64,000 nt of DNA from [Erwinia] mediterraneensis (lineage in GTDB: Bacteria > Pseudomonadota > Gammaproteobacteria > Enterobacterales > Enterobacteriaceae), in contig NZ_LR026978.1 of the NCBI RefSeq assembly GCF_900604315.1, positions 3,606,013-3,670,012 on the forward strand, in the 5' to 3' direction. A program made the position numbers and the translations under genes. Every line of letters starts with the position of its first letter. The stretch's first letter is position 1. Of the stretch, positions 18,893 through 60,916 are shown one piece after another. A model generated the notes under the pieces. That model did no database searches and had not been told where the DNA came from. It worked only from the letters and a program-made list of their open reading frames with translations.

Positions 18893-19070
18893 CAGTAAAA
18901 ATCCGCCTTCATAGAAGGCGGCTTTGATTGTACCCCATAGGGGTGTACCAAAAACCTTAAAAAGAAGTCTCTGCCTGTTCCGTAAGATTCAAATCCAGAG
19001 ACGATAAGGCAGAGCCAAAAACTTATTGATGACCACGCCCGCAGGACGTGGTTTTAAGCTGGCAATAAAA
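18893..19070. repeat. Dispersed structured element, copy A
   Basis: 178 bp, near identical to 20939-21115 and 43475-43650, all in the same orientation. Read on the plus strand it holds, in order, CCGCCTTC-ATA-GAAGGCGG, a CCCC-ATA-GGGG hairpin, a core able to form two alternative helices, and CCACG...CGTGG. On the minus strand the first of these becomes a terminator (GAAGGCGG then ATTTTT). It lies between the fadD terminator and the rnd start. Copy A differs from B at a handful of sites, such as GAAGTCTC against GCAGTCTC and CCAAAAACTTATT against CCAAAACGTATT. Confidence 0.92.
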
Positions 19071-19090
19071 ACGCCGGTCAGTACCGGCGT
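19066..19090 (-). terminator. Terminator of fadD
   Basis: On the minus strand ACGCCGG, a 6-base loop and CCGGCGT are followed by TTTTATTG. The T run belongs to the end of repeat copy A, so element and terminator are joined base to base. Confidence 0.85.
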
Positions 19091-19113
19091 TCAACCTGTG
19101 TTGCCAGACGCGA

Positions 19114-20790
19114 TCAGCGCAGTGCGGCTTTCGCTTCATCACGCAGTTCGCGACGTAAAATTTTGCCCACGTTGGTTTTGGGCAGATCATCGCGAAACTC
19201 AATAATTTTAGGCACTTTATAGCCGGTAAGCTGGCGACGGCAGTGCTCGAGCAGCTCTTCTTTCGTCAGCGACGGGTCTTTCTTCACCACACAGGCTTTC
19301 ACCGCCTCGCCGGAAAGATCGCTGGGTACGCCGATGGCGGCAGCCTCGCGCACTTTGGGGTGCAGCATCAGCACATTTTCAATCTCGTTCGGGTAGACAT
19401 TGAAGCCCGAGACCAGAATCATATCTTTTTTACGATCGACGATACGGATAAAACCTTCATGGTCAACGGTAACAATATCACCGCTCCTGAGCCAGCCATT
19501 TTTTAACACTTCCTCAGTGGCCTGCGGCTGCTGCCAGTAACCGAGCATCACCTGCGGGCCGCGGATGCAGAGTTCGCCCGGCTCACCTTCCGGCACCTCA
19601 TTGCCCTGCTCGTCGATAATACGGATATCCGTCGACGGCACCGGTAAGCCGATACTGCCGGTGTGGCAGGTAATATCATACGGGTTCACCGATACCAGCG
19701 GCGAGCACTCGGTCAGGCCGTAACCTTCCAGCAGATAGTGGCCGGTGAGCTTCTCCCAGCGCTCCGCTACCGCTTTTTGCACCGCCATGCCACCCCCTGC
19801 CGAAAGACGCAGGGTAGAAAAGTCGAGCTGATGAAACTTCGGCTCATTCAGCAACGCGTTGAACAGGGTGTTCACGCCAGTAATAGCAGTAAAAGGAAAT
19901 TTACTCAGCGCCTTCACAAACGCAGGAATATCGCGTGGGTTGGTGATCAGCAGGTTATGGCCGCCCAGCTCGAGAAACAACAGCCCGTTCACCGTCAGGG
20001 CAAAAATATGATAAAGCGGCAGCGCGGTGACAATACACTCCTTACCGTCGCGCAGCAGGGAGCCGTAAGTCGCTTTGGTCTGCTCCAGATTGGCCTGCAT
20101 ATTACGATGGGTCAGCATCGCGCCTTTGGCCTGACCGGTGGTGCCACCGGTATATTGCAGAAAGGCCAGGTCGCTGTTGGTGATATCCGGACGCTGATAA
20201 CGCAGCTGCCTGCCCTGCTGCAGCACGCGGCGAAAAGGTATGGCGCCGGGCAGCTGATAGTCCGGCACCAGCTTTTTGACATATTTTACGACGAAATTGA
20301 CCAGGGTGGCTTTGAGCGGTGCCAGCGCATCGCCCATATGGGTCAGAATCACATGTTTAACGGGCGTTTCTGCCCGCACCTTTTCCAGCGTATGCGCGAA
20401 GCTGGAAACAATCACAATGGCGCTGGCGCCGCTGTCATTGAGCTGGAGTTTGAGTTCACGGGGCGTGTAGAGCGGGTTAACATTCACCACCACCAGGCCG
20501 GCACGCAGCACGCCAAACAAGGCCACCGGATACTGCAGCAGGTTCGGCATCATCAGCGCAACGCGATCCCCCTTTTTCAACTGCAGTTCCTGTTGCAGAT
20601 AAGCGGCGAAGGCCCGGCTTTGGGTTTCAAGCTCGCGGTAGCTCATCTGCTGGCCCATGTTTTCAAAGGCCGGTCGGTCAGCGTAACGCGCCACAGCCTG
20701 TTCAAACAGATCGATTAATGAGTCATAACGGTCCGCATCGATCTCGGCAGGTACATTTGCCGGATAACGTTTCAGCCAAACCTTATTCAA
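19114..20790 (-). CDS. fadD: Long-chain fatty acid CoA ligase FadD
   Basis: Peripheral inner-membrane enzyme that activates incoming long-chain fatty acids to acyl-CoA (ATP to AMP), the entry to beta-oxidation and the source of the FadR ligand. The adenylate-forming motifs are [15 protein letters not shown] (P-loop, about 205-219), YGLTE, and the linker and C-terminal lysine region [20 protein letters not shown] and [15 protein letters not shown] place the start at TTG 20790: GGAG lies 7 bases upstream, the protein then begins with NKVWLKRYP, and E. coli fadD also starts with TTG. That gives 558 residues (561 in E. coli). The frame extends to 20823. Confidence 0.94.
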
Positions 20791-20858
20791 GGAATCACTC
20801 CAGGATTTATTTATTATTGCCATCGCTACCCCTGCTGACCGTTTTTTAACATTATATT

Positions 20859-20938: not shown

Positions 20939-21115
20939 CAGTAAAAATCCGCCTTCATAGAAGGCGGCTTTGATTGCACCCCATAGGGGTGTACCAAAAA
21001 CCTTAAAAAGCAGTCTCTGCCTGTTCCGTAAGATTCAAATCCAGAGACGATAAGGCAGAGCCAAAACGTATTGATGACCACGCCCGCAGGACGTGGTTTT
21101 AAGCTGGCAATAAAA
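20939..21115. repeat. Dispersed structured element, copy B
   Basis: 177 bp, the second copy of the element at 18893-19070, between yeaY and fadD. It abuts the yeaY terminator hairpin at 21116-21146 in the same way copy A abuts the fadD terminator. Its second hairpin reads CACCCC-ATA-GGGGTG, where copy A has TACCCC-ATA-GGGGTG, a U-G to C-G improvement of the pair. Confidence 0.92.
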
Positions 21116-21146
21116 TGGCCCGGTCGTGCAGGTCACGGCCAGGCCA
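21111..21146 (-). terminator. Terminator of yeaY
   Basis: On the minus strand a 13-base arm (21146-21134) pairs with 21128-21116 at 12 of 13 positions (one G-U pair) around a 5-base loop, followed by TTTTATTG from repeat copy B. It begins 31 bases after the yeaY stop. Confidence 0.75.
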
Positions 21147-21176: not shown

Positions 21177-21773
21177 TTATTCCGTTAAGATGGTTTCGAC
21201 CCGTGCCGGGCCGGAACTGTACATTCCCCAGTAAGGATTGGGTCCCCAGTAACCGTGACGGTGACGCCCGGGGCCGGACCAGATCCAGGGATCGATCATC
21301 GGCTGCGGCGGTGCCACAACCTGTTTCACCATGCGCCAGCGCTGATAACCTTTCACATCGATGACGATAAAGCGATAGTTCGCCTGCCCCACCTCGCCAA
21401 CTTCGCTGCCTTTGATGGTGCCCAGGACGGTGACATACTGGTTATTAAGATTGAGGGGATCCACAAAGCCGCGGATATCAGCATAGATACGTCCCACCGA
21501 GGCGCTGCCCAGACGGGGCCGCGCCTGCTCATCCAGGGGTTGCGTGGCGATTTCGAGACGGGTCACCTCGTTAAGATTGGTCACCCTGACGACTTTTCCG
21601 CCGAAACGGGATTCCTGGCCGACATAGAGCTGTGGTGCATTCATCACGCGTAACAGATCCTGCTGCGGGAGCGGAGAGCTACCTTTGAGGGTATCAGGCA
21701 CGGAAACACAGCCGCCAAGCAGCAGCGCCACTGCTAACAGGAGGCCGTGAGTTCCTTTAGGACGTTTTGACAT
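21177..21773 (-). CDS. yeaY: Slp-family outer-membrane lipoprotein YeaY
   Basis: Lipoprotein of the Slp (starvation lipoprotein) family, function unresolved. The signal peptide runs from [22 protein letters not shown] to the lipobox cysteine at about residue 22. The Slp domain follows ([29 protein letters not shown]) and the tail is rich in Trp, Gly and Tyr. ATG 21773 has AGGAGAGG upstream; 198 residues. It lies between tsaB and fadD as in E. coli. Confidence 0.88.
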
Positions 21774-21830
21774 AAACCTCTCCTTTGTTCTCCTGTTAGA
21801 CTGAGCGGAAAGCATTTAGTTGCGTGTCTG

Positions 21831-38266: not shown

Positions 38267-38332
38267 ACTAAGCTCCCGGGAGAAAAACGCGCCGCAGTTT
38301 ACCCTGTTCTGCCAGGCACAGAAAGCGCAAAG

Positions 38333-38359
38333 AAAAAGCCCCGGTCAGATGACCGGGGC
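38333..38359 (-). terminator. Terminator of cspC
   Basis: On the minus strand GCCCCGGTCA and TGACCGGGGC form the stem, followed by a run of five T (A run 38333-38337 on the plus strand), about 48 bases after the cspC stop. Confidence 0.85.
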
Positions 38360-38406
38360 TTTAGGATTCGTTTCAGTGGTGCATAGCACCCTGACAGGAG
38401 ACGAAA

Positions 38407-38616
38407 TCAGATAGCTACAACGTTAACCGCTGCCGGGCCTTTCTGGCCATCCTGAATTTCGAACTCTACGCTCTGACCTTCGGCCAGGGTTTTAAAGCCG
38501 TTACCCTGGATTGCAGAGAAGTGTACGAACACGTCTTTGCTGCCATCAGCAGGAGTAATAAAACCAAAGCCTTTAGACTCGTTGAACCACTTAACCTGAC
38601 CTTTAATCTTTGCCAT
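38407..38616 (-). CDS. cspC: Cold-shock-like protein CspC
   Basis: 69-residue single cold-shock domain, an RNA-binding antiterminator and RpoS-mRNA stabiliser made at 37 degrees. RNP1 KGFGFI and RNP2 VFVHF are present. It differs from my memory of E. coli CspC at only two positions. It follows yobF, with which it shares a transcript in E. coli. Confidence 0.96.
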
Positions 38617-38698
38617 TTTGCAAATTCCTTAGAGTGTTTATATTGCCCGGAGGCTGACTTACAGAGAAACCAGAGACGTTACTGAATGAGGCACTAAT

Positions 38699-38773
38699 TT
38701 AAGGTTCGGCAAGGAAGCGGTATTCAACGTTCACGTTTTTACTCGTAACTTCTTTACTGAAGATGCCATACAT
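38699..38773 (-). CDS. yobF: Truncated YobF small protein
   Basis: Twenty-four codons from ATG 38773 to TAA (38701-38699), reading MYGIFSKEVTSKNVNVEYRF then LAEP. This is clearly YobF, a 47-residue stress-induced small protein of E. coli (MCGIFSKEV...VEYRF.AEP). The TAA stands where E. coli has a tyrosine codon, and the frame behind it still reads I-S-A-S-F-S-N-V-S, matching the E. coli continuation. It precedes cspC as in E. coli. Whether the 24-residue form works is unknown; the DUF2527 core is largely kept. Confidence 0.75.
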   Translation of the reverse strand: MYGIFSKEVTSKNVNVEYRFLAEP

Positions 38774-39303
38774 ACACAGAACTGTACCTCGTTTAACCCA
38801 CGAATTGTTATCACATATTCGCAAATTATTGGCAAGCCATTTTTAAACGTCAAACGATACGGTGCGCATTATTGTTAATGCTATCGCATTGTTGGCCTTT
38901 TTTACTGGCTAACCTGTACCGCTTAAGAGGCATAAAAAGCTTATACCTCAAAGACCTTGCGAGTAAAGAATACTGTAGCGCATCCGGACTGCACCGTCCA
39001 GATGCCATTTTTAATCCTCAGCCCCGGACGAAAAAATATCGCATATTTATTACAACGATAAAATTTTTAATGTGTTTACTCACCTCAGTATGAGCATTAT
39101 CTGTAAACGTGATCCTGTACAGCCTTTGTCACCAGGTACAATTTAAAAAGGCATTTGCACCAAAATCATGAAAATAAGCCGCGCCATGCCCCAAATATAA
39201 GCAAAGCGTTATTTACGCAATGTGTGCTGGCATTCTGCCAGGCGCGAAAATTGTTGTTTAAAAATTCTGTTAAGAAAACATAGTTTTCTTTCAGCGTTTA
39301 GGA
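38774..39303. other. Gene-free region between yobF and the metallo-hydrolase gene
   Basis: 530 AT-rich bases. It should contain the yobF-cspC promoter at the left. The open frame at 38872-39093 lacks a ribosome site and a family match. A terminator-like hairpin on the plus strand at 38980-39012 has no gene before it. Confidence 0.5.
38980..39012 (+). terminator. Orphan Rho-independent terminator
   Basis: GCATCCGGAC (38980-38989), loop TGCACC, GTCCAGATGC (38996-39005) with one mismatch, then CATTTTT. It faces the plus strand, but no plus-strand gene ends here, which points to a short untranslated transcript starting somewhere in 38800-38950. Confidence 0.55.
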
Positions 39304-43474: not shown

Positions 43475-43650
43475 CAGTAAAAATCCGCCTTCATAGAAGG
43501 CGGCTTAGATTGCCCCCCATAGGGGGTACCAAAATCCTAAAAAAGCAGTCTCTGCCTGTTCCGTAAGATTCAAATCCAGAGACGATAAGGCAGAGCCAAA
43601 ACGTATTGATGACCACGCCCGCAGGACGTGGTTTTAAGCTGGCAATAAAA
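43475..43650. repeat. Dispersed structured element, copy C
   Basis: 176 bp, third copy of the element at 18893-19070 and 20939-21115, lying between convergent yebQ and htpX. It touches the htpX terminator at 43651. It is the most divergent copy: the second hairpin reads CCCCC-ATA-GGGGG, where copies A and B have ACCCC-ATA-GGGGT, a two-sided change that keeps the pair, and the following spacer has small changes (ATCCTAAAAAA). Confidence 0.92.
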
Positions 43651-43676
43651 AAGGCGACATTACTGTCGCCTTTTTT
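43647..43676. terminator. Terminator of htpX
   Basis: A run, GGCGACA-TTAC-TGTCGCC, T run: a bidirectional hairpin 18 bases after the htpX stop. On the minus strand its T run is shared with the end of repeat copy C. Confidence 0.88.
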
Positions 43677-43693: not shown

Positions 43694-44575
43694 TTACTTC
43701 AGGTACTGGCCGCTACGCAGCGCCTCAATGCGCTTATCCAGCGGCGGATGCGACATAAAGAGCTCGCTCAGGGATTTCCCTTTACCGTTGATGCAGAAAG
43801 CCATCATGCTGCTCGGCTCCTGCGGCTCATAACTGGTTTTTAAACGCTGCAGCGCCGCGATCATTTTTTCACGCCCTACCAGTCTGGCTGACCCGGCATC
43901 GGCATGAAACTCACGGTAGCGCGAGAACCACATGGTGATAATGCTGGCCAGAATACCGAACACCAGCTCCAGCACCATGGCGACCGCAAAATAGACCATC
44001 GGGTTGCCGTTGCTGCTCTCTTCATCTTCGCGATTGCCGGACAGGAAGCCTGACGCCACCTGCGCGATAATGCGTGAAATAAAGATCACAAAGGTGTTCA
44101 CCACCCCCTGCACCAGCGTCATGGTGACCATATCGCCATTGGCGATATGGCTGATTTCATGCGCCAGTACCGCCTCAGCCTCATCACGGCTCATGTTTTG
44201 CAATAACCCGGTAGAAACCGCAACCAGCGAGGCATCACGCCGGGCGCCGGTGGCAAACGCATTGATATCAGGCGCGTGATAGATTGCCACCTGCGGCATC
44301 GCGATCCCGGCCTGCTGCGCCTGATGTCCGATGGTGGTCATCAGCCAGCGCTCGGTTTCATTACGGGGTTGTTCAATGACTTCACCACCAACAGAACGCA
44401 AAGCCATCCACTTTGACATCAGCAGTGAAACAAACGCACCGCCAAAGCCAAACAGGCCTGCCATAATCATCAGGCCCTGAACACTGCTTGACCGGATTCC
44501 TGTCAGACTGAGAATCAGTCCGAATACCAACATCACAGCCAGGTTGGTGAGCAGGAAAAGAGCAATACGCATCAT
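43694..44575 (-). CDS. htpX: Membrane zinc metalloprotease HtpX
   Basis: M48 protease of the inner membrane that degrades damaged membrane proteins with FtsH. Two N-terminal helices, zinc motif [13 protein letters not shown] (HEXXH) near residue 140, a hydrophobic pair at about 158-215, and the third ligand in [14 protein letters not shown]. 293 residues, like E. coli. The family answers to CpxR and sigma-32. Confidence 0.96.
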
Positions 44576-60297: not shown

Positions 60298-60675
60298 CCG
60301 TACGGTTCTGTTTATGCGCAGCGATAATACGCCATTAAGTTAATCAATGCGTTAACTATGGGTACTGCTTCGCGAAACTTACATCAAAAGTGGTGCCCAA
60401 ACAGTATTTCAGCGCGCACCGGTTGTCACAGTGCGCCTATGGGCGCCTGCAATCTCCGCACGGATGAGTATGTTAGTATCTCAGTTCCTGCCGTTGGCAA
60501 TCAGAAATGATGCTTCTATAAAATAGGCTCAACGCGAAAACCCATCTGATTTAAACAGCTATTACGCAGAAAAGCGCATCGCACATGAATTGCAGTACGC
60601 TTTTCTTAAACAGGATATTGGAAATTCGGACATTTTTGGACAACGTGTTATTTTTTGGTTATAAAACAAGGAGAT
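60298..60675. other. Intergenic region before sdsR
   Basis: 378 bases without a plausible gene. It marks the right-hand boundary between the accessory stretch and the conserved sdsR-yebY block. The open frame 60655-60873 is an antisense shadow of sdsR. The strand opposite sdsR carries the antisense RNA RyeA in E. coli; I see no separate proof here. Confidence 0.4.
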
Positions 60676-60775
60676 AAAAAAAGACCGAATACGATTCCTA
60701 TATTCGGTCCAGGGAAATGGCTCTTTGAGAGCCGTGCGCTAAAAGTTGGCATTAATGCAGGCTATGTCGCCTTGC
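60676..60775 (-). ncRNA. sdsR: Small regulatory RNA SdsR (RyeB)
   Basis: About 100 nt on the minus strand, beginning GCAAGGCGACATAGCCTGCA, followed by TTAATGCCAAC and TTTTAGCGCACGG, then a GGCTCT/AGAGCC hairpin and the terminal hairpin GACCGAATA...TATTCGGTC with a T run. It matches E. coli SdsR nearly base for base, as I remember it, and lies before yebY as in E. coli. SdsR is an Hfq-dependent, RpoS-made stationary-phase RNA that represses tolC, mutS and porin genes. Confidence 0.92.
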
Positions 60776-60778
60776 ATT

Positions 60779-60789
60779 TTAAGGGTAGA
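60779..60789 (-). promoter_or_regulatory. Sigma-S -10 element of sdsR
   Basis: Minus strand TCTACCCTTAA matches the sigma-S consensus KCTAYACTTAA at 10 of 11 positions, ending 3 bases before the inferred RNA start. Confidence 0.7.
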
Positions 60790-60916
60790 ACAGTGCAGCA
60801 GATTTGCCAGCTAACCCTTTTGGGTACGCAAAAAAGCTGTTCACTCTGTGATCGTTCTTGCAGAAATCTGTGACGGCGGGCGCAGCTGAGACTGTACCCG
60901 CACAGGCTGGGGAAAA

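Follow-up and report, generated by a model that had tools for sequence, protein, structure and literature searches.

Across the genome of [Erwinia] mediterraneensis, copies of a short element are located directly behind Rho-independent terminators, and this association exceeds chance. By its sequence, the element is a non-autonomous derivative of an insertion sequence (IS) of the IS200/IS605 family that is resident in the same genome. The analysis started from a window of 64,000 nt (the whole stretch of DNA analysed; positions 3,606,013 to 3,670,012 of contig NZ_LR026978.1), which has three copies of 168–170 nt, all on the minus strand. An earlier note on this DNA had proposed that each copy begins behind a terminator, and all three do follow a terminator-type hairpin.

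Copy A (18895..19064; 170 nt, TGCCAGC...GGCGGATTTTTAC, with boundaries set by vacant sites and variant copies) is downstream of fadD (19114..20823, minus strand; NF006523, NCBIfam). Its target is the fadD terminator hairpin plus TTTTTAT (19065..19091), with the stem at 19072-19089. Copy B (20941..21109; 169 nt) is downstream of a gene (21177..21815, minus strand) that the note had called yeaY; the hairpin claimed for it is present and the gene is assigned here to the Slp family of lipoproteins (TIGR00752, NCBIfam). The target of copy B is this terminator-type hairpin plus TTTTAT (21110..21146), and the stem (21116-21146) has 8 bp, including one T-G pair, and a 15-nt loop. Copy C (43477..43644; 168 nt) is downstream of htpX (43694..44575, minus strand; NF003965, NCBIfam), and its target is the htpX terminator hairpin plus TTTTTTAT (43645..43670), with the stem at 43653-43670. 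As had been noticed, the three target hairpins have different sequences, and the element itself closes with a terminator-like hairpin, CCGCCTTCTATGAAGGCGG-ATTTTTAC. In copy A, the left-end hairpin (CCACGTCC TGC GGGCGTGG; 19033..19055) has the guide AAAA at its 5' foot, and the right end (18895..18925) consists of the foot AAAG, the hairpin CCGCCTTC TAT GAAGGCGG, and then ATTTTTAC. Elsewhere in the window, Rfam matches are to SraC/RyeA, with SdsR/RyeB on the opposite strand (60672-60813), and to a cspA-type thermoregulator (38332-38779).

Vacant sites in relatives define the junctions. We searched 60 genomes of the genus, 56 of which matched fadD, and fetched 29 other fadD loci; the element is absent from 28 of these. 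After the stem, 26 of the 28 vacant sites read TTTTTAT, one reads TTTTTAC, and one TTTTTGT. With junctions marked by slashes, a vacant site such as L137 is GGCGTTTTTATTGTTTTCAACATGG and the filled site is GGCGTTTTTAT/TGCCAGC...GGCGGATTTTTAC/TGTTTTCAACATGG. The layout is stem-TTTTTAT/TGCC...GGCGGATTTTTAC/flank, with no bases duplicated or lost. The T tract, which had been described as shared by terminator and element, therefore belongs to the target, and the junction follows it. The fadD site alone leaves the boundary ambiguous by 2 nt because TG is present on both sides. In five copies (L016, L018, L021, L027, and L032), CCAAC follows the junction; these read TTACC where others read TTGCC, so the base after TT is assigned to the element, which properly begins TGCC or TACC.

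Other insertions are found at the same terminator. At the 29th fadD locus (L158, genome G024), the left end of a full IS is located at exactly this position, with the right end on another contig (L114), and in G025 a 75%-identical short element is at the fadD terminator (L113). Together, these sequences suggest that the fadD terminator has probably been hit more than once. Genome G024 (L114, L116-L127, L158) matches the right end 13 times. Most of these matches are no more than about 130 nt from the edge of a contig, the pattern that a multi-copy IS would give by interrupting the assembly. The vacant fadD terminator of G066 (L138) reads TTTTTACT versus TTTTTATT in the 26 of 28; its TTTTTAC is also the reading of the element's right end and could be a trace of a past copy or a plain substitution.

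The element is also absent from all 29 other htpX loci fetched. A joined-flank search at six further loci found relatives with a terminator and without the element. At L002, L004, L005, and L010, the vacant-site alignment crosses the junction, in diverged sequence that is not always TTTTAT (e.g., TTTTTTGC in L273). At L006 and L020, the alignment covers the left side only, and the L006 match may be to another terminator.

BLAST against the genome that contains the window yields 34 matches to the element, 30 at E <= 1.5e-47 and four end pieces. Of the strong matches, 28 cover at least 173 of 177 query bases, one is a 200-nt variant, and one is cut short. The end pieces are the ends of two longer copies of 641 nt each. 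The 57 nt at each end are common to the element and the 641-nt IS (88% identity), and the middle of the element has no significant match in it (both tested on one IS). A frame of about 145 aa between the ends of the longer copies encodes an IS200/IS605 transposase (TnpA; PF01797, 127.6 bits, cut-off 23; NF033573, 141.9 bits, cut-off 55) with an HVH motif and a Tyr that aligns with those of solved TnpA structures. A transposase search was among the checks that the note had proposed, and these two are the only genes found with PF01797 in the whole genome. Because of this, and of the shared ends, the resident TnpA is the candidate mobiliser, and the short copies have presumably been moved by it in trans.

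Features of the IS conform to the IS200/IS605 family, which transposes by single-stranded peel-and-paste: a Y1 HUH TnpA, subterminal hairpins at the two ends, insertion 3' of a short fixed target that stays at the left flank and is not duplicated, and a guide at the 5' foot of the hairpin that is complementary to the cleavage site. The Y1 HUH TnpA, the hairpin at each end, the complementary guide at a hairpin foot, and insertion 3' of a short target without duplication are likewise properties of the IS200 group, whose studied model is IS608. Similar to PATEs and MITEs mobilised by IS200/IS605 TnpA, the element keeps both ends of a full IS in the genome, lacks tnpA, and is present in about 30 copies. 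It differs from them in that its middle is unmatched in the resident IS but has full-length relatives in E. coli and on a Salmonella plasmid. REP elements with TnpA-REP (RAYT) are also small palindromic elements tied to a Y1 transposase, but the TnpA here scores 25.6 bits against the REP-associated model NF047646 (cut-off 80), and a REP element, with the RAYT that the note had proposed to look for, was rejected.

The location behind terminators extends to every copy found in the genome. We required a stem with an RNA energy <= -6 kcal/mol and measured spacing from the outermost G-C pair to the junction. The loop limit was first 10 nt and then raised to 15 nt, for copies and controls alike, because the hairpin of copy B needs a 15-nt loop. 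In all 32 genomic copies, a stem precedes the junction at a distance of 7–9 nt from its outermost G-C pair (loop <=15; 7 nt in six copies, 8 nt in 21, and 9 nt in five), and 31 of 32 have one with loops <=10 nt. This outcome, with no copies away from terminators and with the T tract present at vacant sites in relatives, bears out the site-specific insertion that the note had put forward. The target ends in TTTTAT in 28 copies and has TTTTTCAT in L006. It is TTTTTAC for the second copies of three tandem pairs, whose target is the right end of the first copy. By a crude criterion, a same-strand frame of 80 codons or more ends <=200 nt upstream of 27 of the 32 copies; the other five are the three tandem second copies, L006, which follows a tRNA-Asp gene, and L016, with its nearest frame at 383 nt.

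Controls were TTTTAT sites in 20 stretches of 20 kb from the same chromosome (400 kb), split into coding and noncoding by a simple ORF rule. A stem at 6–10 nt precedes 14 of the 92 noncoding sites and 12 of the 213 sites in coding sequence. Excluding the three tandem second copies leaves 29 independent copies, and the contrast of 29 of 29 with 14 of 92 noncoding sites is significant (Fisher p about 1e-17). The T run alone is insufficient as an explanation and was rejected as the cause: where there are exactly four Ts, a stem is present in 3 of 3 copies versus 0 of 40 noncoding controls. Controls with five, six, and seven Ts have stems at 3 of 30, 7 of 18, and 3 of 4 sites, respectively, and copies have a stem at every T-run length. 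Extrapolated from 400 kb to the 3.87-Mb contig, the 14 vacant noncoding sites correspond to an estimated total of about 135, which would put occupancy at roughly a sixth of the sites of this kind.

The TTAT at the end of the target is accounted for by the guide. In IS608, the target is read by the guide at the left-hairpin foot and not by the protein; IS608 is described as dependent on the tetranucleotide TTAC, with a preferred next base (excerpts of PMC5934647). We compared the last guide base with the last target base at 72 loci, which may be related (59 parsed automatically, 13 by hand), and the two are complementary at 61; the other 11 include some parsing faults, which were left in the count. 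Guide and target covary between groups, with AAAA or AACA paired with TTAT, AAAT with TTAA, and AAAC with TTAG. The right-end foot AAAG pairs with TTAC, a combination that is the left-end guide and site of IS608 (PMC5934647, in the same excerpts). Thus, as the pairing rule holds here as in the family, cutting at TTAT is ordinary and the novelty is the stem before TTAT. Unlike the description of IS608, a hairpin about 8 nt before the cut is present at every insertion found in the genome, and it looks like an added requirement on top of guide pairing.

Relatives of the TnpA indicate how widely this habit is distributed. A TnpA scan of named genomes found 336 loci. Of the best 80, we scored 66 after dropping six at contig edges and eight in which no left end or motif was recognised. 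At seven loci (L035, L037, L042, L043, L047, L055, and L061), we placed the cut point by hand, and automatic ones outside the group described here may err by a few nt. Among the 66 scored from the best 80 of 336, a stem precedes 18 of 21 loci in two gammaproteobacterial lineages, one of enterics, Pasteurellaceae, and Vibrio and the other of Aliikangiella and Arenicella. The exceptions, without a qualifying hairpin, are L035, L039, and L050. Elsewhere in the same sample, 1 of 45 loci (L077) is behind a stem, as are 0 of 16 with the same TTAT target. Allowing any spacing of 0–25 nt, a stem of <= -6 is found only at L077 and L083 of these 45. The contrast of the 18 of 21 with the 0 of 16 TTAT loci has a p of about 8e-8, for a grouping drawn after the labels were seen.

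The 21 loci do not constitute one clade. Fifteen are in one supported branch and L049, L055, and L061 in a second; L035, L047, and L058, with short frames absent from the tree, were joined to the group by identity. Seven short TnpA frames were left out of the tree. On this quick tree with some weak branches, the terminator label is clustered, with five changes needed versus 19.6–19.7 in shuffles. The branch that unites the two terminator-associated lineages also includes a betaproteobacterial lineage without the habit (8 of 8 rows). Because of this third lineage, one gain followed by a loss and two gains both fit. Residues N32, R97, L101, T21, and K100 are typical of the terminator-associated TnpA group, as candidates only.

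From 50 extra loci, 15 were scored; these were picked for a visible left end of the element's type and are not a fair sample, several of their hand-set cut points are 1 nt early, and the tree label "no" of L264 was assigned by eye. Among the extra loci picked in this way, stems precede 3 of 3 loci in G191, 4 of 5 in G041, L223, L229, L234, and the plasmid locus L134. Qualifying stems are absent from L225, three G049 copies, and E. coli L130, and two loci are below threshold, E. coli L128 (-5.4) and L113 of G025 (mismatched stem). L260 is another locus with no qualifying hairpin. The TnpAs of L077 and L234 are outside the group and have strong terminators upstream, at one locus each, from either an independent gain or chance.

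We infer that the copies are IS200 derivatives for which the left-end guide chooses TTAT and TnpA captures the folded terminator as a mimic of the element's right end, a combination that we hold to be probable. The HUH/Y1 TnpA of the 641-nt IS presumably mobilises the short element in trans via single strands, with the left-hairpin foot, guide AAAA, picking TTAT by base pairing as elsewhere in the family. In the terminator-associated group, integration is also accompanied by a hairpin on the 5' side of the cut, about 8 nt away, which a Rho-independent terminator provides as a stem plus TTTTTTAT. TnpA may take the folded terminator for the right end, which is built alike (stem plus ATTTTTAC). 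The element lands just past the T tract, oriented with the upstream gene and leaving gene and terminator intact. Mimicry is the likeliest form of recognition in our analysis because terminator and right end have the same build and spacing; the 8 nt from stem to cut at the right end equal the modal target spacing. In four cases, Kosakonia L042 and the three tandem pairs of the source genome, insertion is behind the right end of another copy.

Several points stand against mimicry. Spacing alone is no proof of recognition because vacant TTTTAT terminators have the same spacing as occupied targets. Tandem pairs could stem from recombination of excised circles. IS608 TnpA touches particular unpaired bases of its hairpins (excerpts of PMC8266576), and the target stems and loops here, as they vary in sequence, would not be expected to offer contacts of that type. 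It is also hard to see, by our inference, where a TnpA dimer with both ends already bound would accommodate a third hairpin. The build stem-ATTTTTAC can occur at right ends outside the group as well, and T richness of the right end was rejected as a marker of the terminator-associated group. At L011, where the target foot is G, and at L134, with foot A, target TTAC, and guide AATG, left-end guidance fits better than self-guidance by the foot of the target. The betaproteobacterial lineage on the joint branch and the loci without a qualifying hairpin count against the scheme too. The scheme is drawn from standing insertions. Generalised to the family, it would mean that some IS200/IS605 transposases have gained a structural target rule, with a folded single-stranded terminator as stand-in for the right end and guide- and shape-directed insertion into a safe harbour; we advance this tentatively, at slightly less than an even chance.

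Two rivals to mimicry are serious. In the first, an RNA polymerase paused at the U tract bares the non-template T tract as a single strand for the TTAT guide, and the hairpin acts through termination only. The strand cut would be the non-template strand at every terminator, and transposition in the family uses single-stranded DNA (excerpts of PMC5934647 and PMC8266576). Counting against such access, TTAT-targeting relatives elsewhere are behind a stem at 0 of 16 loci, provided that their hosts use such terminators. We consider this account unlikely, if the foremost of the alternatives. In the second, which we rate just below it, the IS inserts at any TTAT and the survivors are harmless insertions behind terminators. 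The genome is gene-dense, insertions behind terminators spare genes, and all the data are standing insertions rather than fresh ones. Selection of this kind has to contend with the contrast between the independent copies (29 of 29) and the noncoding sites (14 of 92), and with the same 0 of 16 relatives. Moreover, copies 99–100% identical to copy B, hence probably young, are also behind stems.

Replication could also produce a bias if terminators fold on the lagging-strand template and keep the T tract open, with no role for protein in the choice. By a hand count, 22 of 29 copies are co-directional with the fork (dnaA at 1.56 Mb, dif-like site at 3.43 Mb). Vacant stem-bearing controls are oriented with the fork at 10 of 14 noncoding and 5 of 12 coding sites, and the noncoding fraction makes the bias of the copies indistinguishable from that of genes; we regard lagging-strand access as improbable. 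Fork orientation does not help to choose between mimicry, transcription-coupled access, and selection either. The two agents named in the earlier note, a class C group II intron and a conserved 3'-UTR RNA module, share the location behind terminators and have a negligible chance of being correct: the element is too short for a reverse transcriptase, its full-length relative encodes TnpA, it shares ends and target rule with an IS200 element of which full copies are in the genome, the window has no Rfam group II intron match at the gathering threshold, and the 29 fadD and 29 htpX loci fetched from relatives are vacant apart from the one fadD locus with a full IS.

The capture of terminators by TnpA, if it occurs, would give a simple single-strand transposase added specificity while sparing the host. 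The upstream terminator and its T tract survive the insertion, which contributes a second terminator-like hairpin and has the orientation of the gene. This suggests that a transposon could spread without breaking genes by settling behind terminators. Class C group II introns insert behind Rho-independent terminators or attC hairpins (excerpts of PMC7923331). The element is not an intron and its chemistry is unrelated, so steering to the same safe harbour behind genes would, if true, be convergent. Insertion of this kind also accounts in a simple way for repeats that follow gene terminators in enteric genomes. The question can be addressed directly in vitro because target, guide, and right end are all short enough to be oligonucleotides.

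The IS200/IS605 family is well known, and its members are described as choosing their target by a tetra- or pentanucleotide (excerpts of PMC7290912). Targeting of terminators within the family is apparently new, with priority tentative: searches of an open-access library yielded no description of it for an IS200/IS605 element (ISfinder and most subscription papers were outside this scope), and the excerpts of PMC9208149, PMC7290912, PMC5934647, PMC8266576, PMC3733652, PMC1525189, and PMC7923331 do not describe it for an IS200 element.

Short relatives of the element are found in other enterics. A phage collection searched with the element gave no match. Short elements in E. coli and on a Salmonella plasmid align over 94–100% of its length at 74–79% identity; the matches to L128 and L133 include the middle part, consistent with either an old mobile lineage or a function of that part. 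Across E. coli genomes, 27 of 5426 have any match. On E. coli chromosomes, a 78%-identical short element (L128, L129, L131, and L132) is in prophage-like gene sets (lysB, lysC, and a tail gene), after a virion morphogenesis gene; the first or second gene on the far side encodes an HNH endonuclease. A vacant-site search for L128 returned 998 matching records, and one for L130 found no vacant site, its sole matches being nine genomes that carry the insertion. Of 2384 matching plasmid records, 40 were listed, and in 38 of these the IS200-like copy at L135 matches in two pieces, probably because of a broken frame, and in the one plasmid record examined this copy is near an aminoglycoside phosphotransferase gene.
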